A stretch of 20,270 bases of DNA from a virus, in the IMG/VR virus record IMGVR_UViG_3300010155_000142, positions 1-20,270 of that record. The stretch is one strand, 5' to 3'. The notes beneath the pieces were generated by a model. That model made no database searches. It saw only the letters and a program-made list of their open reading frames with translations, and was not told the DNA's origin. A program made the translations under genes and the position numbers. Below, piece by piece: positions 3,958-17,861 of the stretch; the stretch's first letter is position 1; every line of letters starts with the position of its first letter.

Positions 3958-3966
3958 AAATATTTC

Positions 3967-3995
3967 TTGACAAAGCAACCTTATTCTAGTATAAT
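3967..3995 (+). promoter_or_regulatory. Sigma-70-type promoter P3 upstream of primase
   Basis: TTGACA (3967-3972) and TATAAT (3990-3995) are perfect, with a 17-bp spacer carrying CCTTATT. The predicted start is near 4002, 23 nt before the primase ATG. It starts immediately after the helicase stop and has the same AT-rich upstream block as the other promoters. Confidence 0.85.
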
Positions 3996-4024: not shown

Positions 4025-4852
4025 ATGACAGTAGAAGAACTATTAGCCTCTAGGGATGTCTATTTCATACCAAAAGGCGCAGATTGTTTAGTTAGTTGTA
4101 TCAATCCTGAACACTCTGATAGAAACCCCAGTATGCGTGTCGATCGTATCACAGGTATCTTTCAGTGCTTCTCTTGTGGGTATAAGGGAAATATTTTTAC
4201 ACATTTTGGAGAAAAGGCAAACCATCTACAAGTAAGAAGAGAGTTATTCAAGAAACGAATTAAAGAGAAACGGTCTGAAAGTATTGGTTTGTCATTTCCT
4301 CGAAATGTTGTCCCCTATGTAGGTAATTGGAGGGACATAAAGCCTGAGACTTATAAAAAGTTCGAGGCATTTCAACACCACGACCCTGATTATATCGGAA
4401 GAGTAGTATTCCCAGTACGGGACATATCAGGAAGAATTGTAGCATTTAATGGTCGTCATACCACAGGCGGAACGCCTAAGTATATGATCTCGCCTGCGGG
4501 TGCGAAGATGCCTTTATTCCCTGTAGTAGAGCCGATACAAGGTTCTGTTATACTAGTAGAAGGTATATTTGATATGATAAACTTGCATGATAAAGGACTA
4601 GACAATGCAGTTTGTACTTTTGGAACAAAGAATATCAATGAAGATAAGTTAAAAATGTTGTCTATACAAGGAGTAGATAGTATAGACGTATTTTTTGATG
4701 GAGATGATGCAGGACAGGACGCATCAAAAGTAATACAAGAGATGTGTGAGCGAGTAGGCTTAACATCGCGTAATGTATGTTTAAAGGATACAGATCCTGG
4801 TGCATTACCATTATCCACAGTTCAAAAACTAAAGAGTAAATTATACAGTTGA
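4025..4852 (+). CDS. DNA primase (CHC2 zinc finger and Toprim)
   Basis: This is a DnaG-type primase that would make RNA primers for the polymerase. The N-terminal zinc-binding domain has C25, H30, C48 and C51 in the CHC2 arrangement (CINPEH ... CFSC). A short linker and an RNA polymerase/Toprim core follow: Glu179 in LVEGIFD and the acidic pair Asp225/Asp227 in FFDGDDAG are the expected metal ligands. At 275 residues it is much shorter than bacterial DnaG (about 600 aa) and lacks a helicase-binding C-terminal domain, as is common in phages. The start is ATG 4025 with AAGGA about 7-8 nt upstream. Its position between the helicase and polymerase genes fits a replisome role. Confidence 0.92.
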   Translation: MTVEELLASRDVYFIPKGADCLVSCINPEHSDRNPSMRVDRITGIFQCFSCGYKGNIFTHFGEKANHLQVRRELFKKRIKEKRSESIGLSFPRNVVPYVGNWRDIKPETYKKFEAFQHHDPDYIGRVVFPVRDISGRIVAFNGRHTTGGTPKYMISPAGAKMPLFPVVEPIQGSVILVEGIFDMINLHDKGLDNAVCTFGTKNINEDKLKMLSIQGVDSIDVFFDGDDAGQDASKVIQEMCERVGLTSRNVCLKDTDPGALPLSTVQKLKSKLYS

Positions 4853-4865
4853 TAAAAAATAATTC

Positions 4866-4894
4866 TTGACTTTTTGTCCCACTTTAGGTAAAAT
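4866..4894 (+). promoter_or_regulatory. Sigma-70-type promoter P4 upstream of the HNH endonuclease
   Basis: The -35 TTGACT (4866-4871) and -10 TAAAAT (4889-4894) each differ from consensus by one base and keep the 17-bp spacer. The upstream AAAATAATTC block is shared with the other promoters. The spacer differs from them, and the -10 is embedded in an inverted repeat. The predicted start is near 4901, giving a leader of about 14 nt. Confidence 0.75.
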
Positions 4895-4903
4895 ATTACC
4901 TAA
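4884..4903 (+). promoter_or_regulatory. Inverted repeat over the P4 -10 box, abutting the HNH gene ribosome binding site
   Basis: Perfect 8-bp arms, TTAGGTAA (4884-4891) and TTACCTAA (4896-4903), flank AATA. The left arm overlaps the start of the -10 box. The last two bases of the right arm are the first two of the Shine-Dalgarno AAGGAG (4902-4907). It could be a protein operator in DNA. It could instead be an RNA hairpin that forms only in read-through transcripts, because a transcript starting near 4901 lacks the left arm. Confidence 0.6.
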
Positions 4904-4914
4904 GGAGTGAAATT

Positions 4915-5502
4915 ATGAATTGGACAAATAAAATAATAGTGTGTAAGAAGAAAGCCTATACTATTGAGGATTTCATAGATATTTGTATATCTTCATGGAC
5001 AAGAACAGAAGCAGCAAAACATTTTGACTGCTCCGAAAAAACTTTAGGTCAGGTCTTAAAAGAACAGATACCAGAACTAGAACCCTCTACAGCACCTCTA
5101 GGGAAGAGACTGCTTAGTTTACTAGAACTAAAAAAGTGTTCAGCTTGTGGTGAAGTGAAAATTTTTGAGGAGTTTCATGTTGATAAGTATAAAAAAGACG
5201 GAAGAACAAGTCAGTGTATCGAATGCCGGCACGCTTCCGAGAAAGTTTACAGAACAGAAAACCCTGAAAAAATTGCAGCAAAGACAGCAAAAAGAAGGTC
5301 GGCTAAACTTAAGAGAACCCCAGAGTGGGCAAACCTTTCGCATATAGAAGAATTTTATGCAAACTGCCCAGAAGGATATGAAGTAGACCACATTATCCCC
5401 TTACAAGGCAAGAACGTATCAGGGCTTCATGTAGAAAATAATTTACAGTATTTAACTGTAGTAGAAAACAGAACTAAATCAAATAAATACGGAGAAGAGT
5501 AA
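4915..5502 (+). CDS. HNH endonuclease, probable free-standing homing endonuclease
   Basis: The 195-residue protein has a helix-turn-helix-like N-terminus (about 28-50, WTRTEAAKHFDCSEKTLG), a four-cysteine zinc motif (C75, C78, C101, C104), a basic linker, and a C-terminal HNH nuclease motif. The HNH motif shows VDHII at 157-161 with the catalytic-type His159, then GLHVENNLQ (His172, Asn176) and a final ENRTKSNK. DNA cleavage is the expected activity. It sits between primase and polymerase, both intact, so it is a free-standing gene and not inside an intron or intein. Homing into the replication module is the usual behaviour of such genes. The start is ATG 4915 with AAGGAG at 4902-4907. The stop TAA overlaps the polymerase ATG. 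Confidence 0.85.
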   Translation: MNWTNKIIVCKKKAYTIEDFIDICISSWTRTEAAKHFDCSEKTLGQVLKEQIPELEPSTAPLGKRLLSLLELKKCSACGEVKIFEEFHVDKYKKDGRTSQCIECRHASEKVYRTENPEKIAAKTAKRRSAKLKRTPEWANLSHIEEFYANCPEGYEVDHIIPLQGKNVSGLHVENNLQYLTVVENRTKSNKYGEE

Positions 5503-7796
5503 TGACAGGCACTCTAATAAAGCCTAAAGTAGCTATCGTAGAGACTAAACCAAGTAAAACCAATTACGCACGAGAGTTCGATGGAGAGTTTGAATTTGAC
5601 CAGTATCAACTGTGTTCCGATCCAACTATTAAAAAAGTATTGAAGCGCAATTGCGACATTGAGATAGACATAGATGCGTATGACTGGTTAGTACTTGTAG
5701 GGAGTGATGCTCTGAAGTATTTCACCCCCATTAACTCAGTTACAGAATATTCAGGCAAGAAAGTAGAAGGTAAATTTCTGCCGGTAATTAATCCAGCGAT
5801 GCTTACGTTTAAACCTGAGGCAAGACGCACTTGGGAAGATTCAAAGCAAAGTATTATAGATTATATTACTGATAACAAGCAAGACACAGTTATCACAGAG
5901 GACAATGCTTGGGGTATTCAAAACACTGAAGAAGCCAACGCCTTTATTCAGGCATCTATAGACGCTCCAAGCCCCTATATTGCCCTCGATTCGGAGACTA
6001 CAGGTTTGTACCCGAGAGATGGATATATGCTTGGTATTTCCCTATCGTATGAGAGGGATAAAGGTGCTTACATTGATACAGAGTGCTTCGACGAAACTAC
6101 AGAACAATTATTACAAGAGTTATTCGACAAGAAGGTCGTAGTGTTCCATAACGCTAAGTTTGATATGGCTTTCTTTGAGTATCATTTTAATTTTAAATTT
6201 CCTCGTTTTGAGGACACTATGCTACTGCACTATCTCATAGATGAGAACCCCGGCACACATGGGTTGAAGCAGTTAGCGATGAAATTTACTAAGTATGGCG
6301 ACTATGAAAAACCAATGTATGATTGGATTAATGCCTACCGCAAAGAGCACGGCATACTTAAAAACGATTTCACTTGGGACTGTATCCCTTTTGACATAAT
6401 GAAATTATATGCGGGCATGGATGCTGCGGTAACATTCTTACTCTATGAGAAGTTTGTAAAAATAAAGCAGAACAAGAGACTTGCTAAAGTATACGATAAT
6501 ATATTAATTCCGGGTTGTAGGTTTTTAACCGATATCCAAGATAATGGCGTGCCTTTCGATAAGTCTCGACTGCTCAAATCTCAGTCTTTAATGCAAGACC
6601 AGATTGACGAAGCAGTAGCGGAGCTATATAAAGATCCTGCCATTAGTAAATTTGAGAAAATAAATGGAAAAGATTTTAATCCTAACTCTACTGTCCAGCT
6701 TCGTAGTCTGTTGTTTGACTATGTTGGTCTCACTCCAACTGGTAAAAAGACTGGCACTGGAGCACATTCGACAGACGCAGAGGTTCTTGAGGACCTGTCT
6801 AGACAATCCCACATCCCAGGACTTATATTGGGAATTAGACAGAAATCCAAGATTAAAAATACTTATCTGGACAAAATCTTACCCCAGTTGGATAGAGATA
6901 GCCGACTACGTACAGGTTTCAACCTCCATAGTACTACTTCTGGGAGGCTTAGTTCTAGTGGCAAACTCAACATGCAACAACTGCCTAGGGATAACCCTAT
7001 TGTAAAAGGTTGTATTAAAGCTGCACCGGGACACAAGATTGTTGCGATGGATTTGACCACAGCGGAGGTATATGTTGCCGCTGTGCTTGCTAAGGATAAG
7101 GCATTGATAGAGGTATTTCGTTCAGGCGGAAACTTCCATAGTACCATTGCTAAGAAAGTATTTAGATTACCCTGCCCAGTGGAGGAAGTAGCTGAGAAGT
7201 ATTCTACACAGAGACAGGCGGCAAAAGCTGTTACTTTCGGTATCATGTATGGCGCAGGTGCTAGAAAGATTAGTGAGCAGGTTACTAAGGATTCAGGTAA
7301 GCCTTTCACTAGAACGGATGCACAGGACGTGATTGATGAATATTTTACTGCGTTCCACAAACTAAAATCATGGATTGAAGAAAACCAACAGTTTATCCAA
7401 CAAAATGGATTCATTTACAGCTTCTTCGGAAGAAAGAGGAGATTACCAAATGTCGCATCGTCAGACAAAGGCATCCAGAGCCATAGCGTTAGGTCTGGTC
7501 TTAATTTTTTGGTGCAGTCTGCTGCTAGTGATATTAACCTATTAGGTGCTATCGATATGAACGCCTATATAAAGGCGACTGGTATGAAAGCACGTATCTT
7601 TGCGTTAGTACACGATTCAATTCTAGCAGAAGTACCAGACGATGAGGTAGACCACTATAAAGAGAAACTCGCAGGGTTTATCCAAATAGATAGAGGTGTC
7701 TCTATATCTGGAGTACCTGTAGGTTGTGACTTTGAGATTGTTCACGAAGATTATTCTGGCGGAAAATTCGAGAAGAGGTATGGTGTTCACGTATAA
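5502..7796 (+). CDS. polA: Family A DNA polymerase with 3'-5' proofreading exonuclease
   Basis: This is the replicative polymerase of the phage. Residues about 8-122 form an extra domain that resembles a degenerate family 4 uracil-DNA glycosylase. The DEDDy exonuclease follows: DSETTG (Asp163, Glu165), HNAKFD (216-221) and YAGMD (303-307). The polymerase domain has motif A MDLTTAEVY (Asp517, steric-gate-like Glu522), motif B with Arg571, Lys575, Phe579 and Tyr583 in RQAAKAVTFGIMYG, and motif C VHDS (His704, Asp705). Motif C has Ser706 where Pol I and T7 have Glu. Phe579 corresponds to Pol I residue 762. There is no 5' nuclease domain; that activity is encoded separately at 14441. The start ATG overlaps the HNH stop (TAATG), with GGAGAAGAG just upstream. 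Length 764 is in the range for phage A-family enzymes. Confidence 0.95.
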   Translation: MTGTLIKPKVAIVETKPSKTNYAREFDGEFEFDQYQLCSDPTIKKVLKRNCDIEIDIDAYDWLVLVGSDALKYFTPINSVTEYSGKKVEGKFLPVINPAMLTFKPEARRTWEDSKQSIIDYITDNKQDTVITEDNAWGIQNTEEANAFIQASIDAPSPYIALDSETTGLYPRDGYMLGISLSYERDKGAYIDTECFDETTEQLLQELFDKKVVVFHNAKFDMAFFEYHFNFKFPRFEDTMLLHYLIDENPGTHGLKQLAMKFTKYGDYEKPMYDWINAYRKEHGILKNDFTWDCIPFDIMKLYAGMDAAVTFLLYEKFVKIKQNKRLAKVYDNILIPGCRFLTDIQDNGVPFDKSRLLKSQSLMQDQIDEAVAELYKDPAISKFEKINGKDFNPNSTVQLRSLLFDYVGLTPTGKKTGTGAHSTDAEVLEDLSRQSHIPGLILGIRQKSKIKNTYLDKILPQLDRDSRLRTGFNLHSTTSGRLSSSGKLNMQQLPRDNPIVKGCIKAAPGHKIVAMDLTTAEVYVAAVLAKDKALIEVFRSGGNFHSTIAKKVFRLPCPVEEVAEKYSTQRQAAKAVTFGIMYGAGARKISEQVTKDSGKPFTRTDAQDVIDEYFTAFHKLKSWIEENQQFIQQNGFIYSFFGRKRRLPNVASSDKGIQSHSVRSGLNFLVQSAASDINLLGAIDMNAYIKATGMKARIFALVHDSILAEVPDDEVDHYKEKLAGFIQIDRGVSISGVPVGCDFEIVHEDYSGGKFEKRYGVHV

Positions 7797-17838: not shown

Positions 17839-17861
17839 GGGGGCGTAAGCCCCCCTTTTTT
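17839..17861 (+). terminator. Rho-independent terminator closing the plus-strand operon
   Basis: The stem GGGGGC (17839-17844) with GCCCCC (17849-17854) has a GUAA tetraloop. It is followed by C and a run of six T (17856-17861). It lies 7 nt after the stop of the 69-aa gene. On the minus strand the same hairpin is followed by only TTT, so it would end the convergent tail gene less efficiently. Confidence 0.9.

Follow-up and report, generated by a model that had tools for sequence, protein, structure and literature searches.

The HNH endonuclease gene between the primase and DNA polymerase genes of this phage is quite probably part of a cassette that carries its own promoter and is insulated from upstream read-through. 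Sequence comparison and RNA folding models together make this the best explanation as a whole.

The window, i.e., the whole stretch of DNA that was analysed, comes from a T5-like phage (virus record G000) and is a fragment of 20,270 bases. Comparison with the T5 map showed that its genes stand in the T5 early replication order: a split NAD ligase, a D5-like regulator, DnaB helicase, primase, the HNH gene, DNA polymerase and further genes. Between this early cluster and a convergent tail gene there is a strong intrinsic-terminator-like hairpin (GGGGGCGTAAGCCCCC-CTTTTTT, 17839-17854, plus strand). The features around the HNH gene are the following, all on the plus strand.

3967-3995, plus strand: upstream promoter P3, TTGACA-17-TATAAT, matching 12/12 consensus positions, with the AAATATTTCTTGAC motif at 3958 and a predicted start at about 4002; source of the read-through RNA
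4025-4852, plus strand: DNA primase (Toprim and zinc ribbon), 5' neighbour of the HNH gene
4846-5521, plus strand: inserted cassette of about 676 bp (right edge approximate) with promoter, hairpin, HNH gene, and the ribosome-binding site (RBS) and new start codon of the DNA polymerase
4857-4894, plus strand: HNH gene promoter P4, AAATAATTCTTGACT-17-TAAAAT, 10/12 consensus, with the exact phage-class motif at 4857 and a predicted start at about 4901
4873-4879, plus strand: 5' strand of an outer helix, UUUGUCC, in the predicted minimum-energy fold of 4850-4935; read-through RNA only
4880-4891, plus strand: left arm CACUUUAGGUAA, within the promoter spacer and -10 box; missing in RNA begun at P4
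4896-4909, plus strand: right arm UUACCUAAGGAGUG, including the Shine-Dalgarno sequence (SD) AAGGAG at 4903-4908
4915-5502, plus strand: HNH/endonuclease VII-like endonuclease of 195 aa, a predicted free-standing homing endonuclease
4922-4928, plus strand: 3' strand of the outer helix, GGACAAA, in codons 3-5, enclosing the AUG in the same predicted fold
5502-7796, plus strand: DNA polymerase A (PF00476, 7e-76), 3' neighbour of the HNH gene

The HNH protein matched phrog_1035, endonuclease VII (4e-23), and a Pfam search with it gave no match. Among 12 homologues both CxxC pairs are invariant and a DHxIPL...GLHV.NNLQY block is conserved; the phrog_1035 match and the invariant DH..PL and NLQYL block identify the HNH catalytic motif. 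The gene is also distributed like that of a free-standing HNH homing endonuclease, by sporadic insertion at a conserved site that is empty in relatives, and is predicted to encode one.

The empty site was analysed in the 80 closest relatives, retrieved via the primase (82-91% identity), 78 of which hold both primase and polymerase. The HNH gene and the insert are absent from the primase-polymerase junction in 78/78 relatives with readable junctions, and in 78/78 having both genes the two frames overlap directly (TATATGCCTAA). Relative to this arrangement, the primase now ends at a TGA brought by the insert (4850-4852), and the polymerase starts at an ATG, likewise from the insert, at 5502, which overlaps the HNH stop (TAATG). 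The junction comparison shows that promoter, hairpin and HNH gene arrived jointly as one insert of about 676 bp. Mean column conservation near the empty junction was 0.96-1.00, a level that would be expected of a homing site. An SD-like stretch of the polymerase itself, GGAGAAGAG, lies near 5490, and this gene is probably translated from both the P3 read-through RNA and the P4 RNA.

The leader of the HNH gene contains an exact inverted repeat, TTAGGTAA (4884-4891) and TTACCTAA (4896-4903), around the loop AATA (4892-4895), followed by the HNH start ATG at 4915. An earlier sequence-only reading had placed 8-bp arms at 4884-4903, around the junction of the P4 -10 box and the predicted start and with the right arm running into the SD. 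The sequence bears out both points, and the predicted stem is even longer: CACUU/GAGUG extends it to 4880-4909, so that CACUU-UAGGUAA pairs with UUACCUA-AG-GAGUG and the SD is buried. The read-through segment 4850-4935 has a predicted folding energy of -16.7 kcal/mol (z -3.0; 1/200 shuffles), and its 35-nt core stands out further (z -4.7; 0/200 shuffles), whereas RNA 4901-4940 is predicted to be unfolded. Opening the 30S site is predicted to take 13.8-14.8 kcal/mol on the read-through transcript and about 2 on the P4 transcript; for the SD alone the values are 5.4-5.6 and 0.5-1.2 kcal/mol. The models thus agree with the earlier proposal that read-through RNA folds at the RBS and P4 RNA stays open. 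The predicted SD cost remains low (1.0-1.5 kcal/mol) for any start point from 4897 to 4903. In a 200-nt P4 RNA the SD is also predicted to pair with distant sequence, which counts against an open P4 RNA.

These features suggest the following mechanism. A free-standing HNH cassette that inserted at the primase-polymerase junction brought with it the sigma70-type promoter P4, and the P4 DNA 5' of the start point encodes an antisense to the RBS of the HNH gene itself. Read-through RNA from P3 would contain this antisense and fold, hiding SD and AUG, and would remain untranslated. P4 RNA would start inside the right arm, lack the antisense and be open to ribosomes. The amount of endonuclease would then depend on P4 and be shielded from the strong upstream primase promoter, which may serve to limit the dose of a DNA-cutting enzyme within the replication operon.

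P4 is a credible promoter, judged by its sequence. Its boxes, TTGACT (4866-4871) and TAAAAT (4889-4894), are separated by a 17-bp spacer, and the left arm ends inside the -10 box. The window contains exactly five copies of the 14-mer AAATANTTCTTGAC, at 12, 996, 3958, 4857 and 10217 (all plus strand); each copy takes in the upstream region as well as the -35 box, and its TTGAC forms the -35 of one of the promoters P1-P5. With up to two mismatches there are seven matches in the window against 1.0 expected (0/100 shuffles), and the 14-mer is found again in contigs of the relatives L162 and L165. Because it sits at the -35 box of all five promoters, P4 belongs to the usual promoter class of this phage, with 10/12 consensus positions against 12/12 for P1, P2, P3 and P5. 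The element is a promoter signature of the phage and can be used in operon mapping. At the consensus promoter P5 (10226-10257, plus strand) the -10 box ends three bases 5' of the first ATG of an ORF, so this ORF is either leaderless or starts further down.

The shared promoter class bears on one part of the earlier analogy with T4, a timing switch in which read-through RNA would be made early and P4 RNA late. The anatomy is that of the I-TevI, SegB and Aeh1 mobE leaders (PMC2988022), and P4 has a weaker consensus than P3. However, P4 carries the same AAATANTTCTTGAC element as P1, P2, P3 and P5, early replication genes use this element, and no late-type promoter is visible at P4. We therefore consider such a timing switch unlikely: transcript-dependent translation, the other part of the analogy, gains comparative support, whereas the change from early to late does not agree with P4 and P3 being of one class. 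For the same reason, dose insulation is the likelier role of the HNH cassette than change with time.

Insulation of an enzyme gene from outside transcription has precedents. In the mobile elements IS10 and IS50, transcripts that enter from outside fold over the RBS and so yield no enzyme; there the element end supplies the arm, whereas in the window the promoter spacer does. For T4 I-TevI, I-TevII and I-TevIII, the free-standing segB and mobE of Aeromonas phage Aeh1, a read-through hairpin hides the endonuclease RBS, and the RNA from the gene's own promoter lacks the 5' arm (PMC2988022). The window leader is predicted to work similarly, with an RBS-including hairpin in the read-through RNA and a promoter sited so that RNA from its predicted start lacks the 5' arm. 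It differs in that the T4 and Aeh1 leaders are controlled in time by middle or late promoters of the T4 type, whereas P4 is a host sigma70-type promoter of the upstream promoter's class, and in that it belongs to another phage lineage and to an endonuclease VII-like HNH family. Since the shared -35 element gives no sign of a later temporal class for P4 than for the read-through promoter, we do not class the leader as T4-type despite the similar working. The T4 genes e, soc and 49 show that inhibitory RNA structure over the RBS also occurs in non-endonuclease genes; for gene e, the long early RNA is folded and the late-promoter RNA open (PMC3014915). These genes have late promoters and are not mobile elements, and the likeness lies in the principle of hiding the RBS, which there serves ordinary phage genes. 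A literature search limited to open-licence papers returned no report of the design in T5-like phages; reports outside that set may exist.

The palindrome alone is not significant: the window contains five perfect 8-bp inverted repeats with a 3-8 nt loop against 2.4 expected. Shuffling the spacer and leader of this gene with -35, -10 and SD fixed gave P = 0.063. Because the palindrome by itself is within chance, comparison with relatives decides. Full-length HNH homologues (33-48% identity) have the same leader design with different arms.

L001: arms AATCTCCTATTAAGTTA/TAACTTAAATAGGAGATT
L004: arms ATTCCTCA/TGAGGAAT
L008: arms ATCTTCCGCCAA/TTGGCGGAAGAT
L166: arms TTTCTCTTTTTGG/CCAAGGAGAGAAA
L197: arms TCCTCTGTTA/TAACGGAGGA
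L162-164, same primase-polymerase junction as the window: arms TTGTCTC/GGAGACAA, still pairing
L165, same primase-polymerase junction: arms TATCTCT/TGGAGGTA, still pairing

The design was also found at L018 (two genes), L175, L179 and L181. At the shared junction, base changes next to the SD in L162-164 and L165 relative to the window are matched by changes in the promoter spacer. A clear hairpin of this kind is missing in four promoter-bearing HNH relatives (L003, L196, L281 and L174). Matches limited to the C-terminal part of the HNH protein (many of L009-L080) form a separate class without promoters and were set aside. In four further HNH relatives (L005:2905, L019:2920, L023:2908 and L006:2953) the -10 box abuts the ATG, which suggests leaderless mRNA, and some of these leaders have palindromes over the -10 box. 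Upstream of the HNH genes at L007:2857, L177:2758, L207:2788 and L208:2929 a similar structured stretch is present (GCGAAAAGGGTAGCTCCCCTG...), for which no Rfam family was found; two of these four loci are rich in tRNA genes. More generally, Rfam gave matches to tRNAs alone, in some of the relatives, and to no family at the leader.

The divergence of the arms also bears on the possibility that the palindrome is an operator, to which a repressor or the endonuclease itself (in I-TevI-like autorepression) would bind over the -10 box. The symmetric 8-bp arms do adjoin this box, and the leader is weakly similar to the empty insertion site (19/25 aligned columns). However, the latter similarity has a P of 0.04-0.15 and is absent in the same-site relatives L162 and L165, and a search for further copies of the 20-mer palindrome, allowing up to three mismatches, found none in the window, nor was there one in its record. 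The homologous leaders share no motif between phages, yet each keeps complementarity to the SD of its own gene. Moreover, many stems contain G-U pairs and bulges: the stems that span the start point comprise 124 A-U, 55 G-C and 23 G-U pairs, i.e., 23/202 are G-U. The operator, which the sequence-only reading had offered as its alternative, is thus highly improbable.

The leader design could be examined statistically over many leaders. Just 5' of the start, 51% of the 39 distinct HNH leaders whose gene has a complete N-terminus show a promoter with at least 10/12 consensus positions; among 1107 other genes from the same loci the share is 6%. Start codons were picked by rule, so that some leaders may be misplaced. 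Spacer and leader shuffles with -35, -10 and SD fixed gave P values mostly at or below 0.05 for 18 HNH leaders (Fisher combined P 5e-14). In an arm-swap test, promoter halves were exchanged among phages and the SD-opening cost was computed. For 17 HNH leaders, taken without hairpin selection, this cost was 9.0 kcal/mol with the own half against 3.6 with foreign halves (0/20,000 permutations). No effect was found for 25 other promoter-driven genes (2.25 against 2.30 kcal/mol; 11,207/20,000). In a first control set, 12/49 genes had looked like switches; since most of these belonged to a single 92-aa family sharing one hairpin, the family was separated ahead of the final test.

In close relatives (L144:2725-3004, L122, L140, L162:1840-2121 and others among L081-L160), helicase and primase are separated by the 92-aa gene (MALTFGSLRHT...YTIAPAYNKGAYQVIS; weak match to phrog_4593), which has its own promoter-in-hairpin leader. 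Its arm-swap costs were 6.95 kcal/mol with own and 5.42 with foreign halves (0/20,000; strong in L162, L144, L122 and L140) in a set of 24 leaders that are not independent because they are closely related. The window is without this gene, and there P3 drives the primase directly; the primase leader forms no more than a weak stem (SD cost 3.3 kcal/mol) and showed no arm-swap effect.

In T5 itself, the genes with adjacent promoters were examined, and in three of them the promoter spacer is complementary to the gene's own SD.

T5.053: AY543070 26436-26717, minus strand
T5.058: AY543070 28302-28592, minus strand
T5.090: AY543070 46057-46335, minus strand

Like the window leader, these have a spacer that can mask the SD, but they are not endonuclease genes and their stems are stronger. 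The predicted SD cost is 12-13 kcal/mol in read-through RNA against 0.3-1.5 in RNA from the own promoter (0/200 shuffles), and the T5 arm-swap gave 7/20,000. The stems are kept in orthologues of other T5-like phages, and those of T5.053 and T5.058 show compensatory changes. In the T5.058 stem of Yersinia phage phiR2-01, a C-G pair is replaced by U-A and a U-G by C-G; in the T5.053 stem of Salmonella phage bobsandoy, a U-A pair (as in SIA3lw) has become C-G and one other pair is lost. The stem is missing in the distant Klebsiella homologues L322 and L332. Two other T5 candidates were rejected: hegH has a correctly placed ATCTCC/GGAGAT but a shuffle P of 0.205, and hegG has a shuffle P of 0.085.

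The compensation that the sequence-only reading had proposed to look for is thus present, among HNH relatives as well as T5-like phages: the arms vary and the pairing is kept. It is very doubtful that these hairpins are functionless products of AT-rich intergenic DNA in which pyrimidine-rich promoter spacers happen to pair with purine-rich SDs, as the near-expected palindrome frequency and the single-leader P of 0.063 would allow, because control genes whose promoters and SDs are of the same kind do not respond to the arm swap and T5-like phages carry compensatory changes. What exceeds chance is the placement of the palindrome and its recurrence in relatives, not the palindrome as such.

Genes other than those of endonucleases share the design, so its sole reason cannot lie in restraining a harmful nuclease. 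Its use by ordinary genes makes a broader role possible, in which each gene of a dense operon would be set by its own promoter. We lean towards the view that T5-like and related phages use self-insulating promoters as a general means of regulation, with homing endonucleases as one user among several and the 92-aa gene 5' of the primase, T5.053, T5.058 and T5.090 as others. The arm-swap comparison offers an easy screen of any phage genome for switches of this type. The protein made from read-through RNA may be less than transcript maps of these phages imply. The device known from T4 is seen here in another phage lineage, under host-type promoters and at non-endonuclease genes too, and its arms go on changing without loss of pairing to the SD of the gene concerned.
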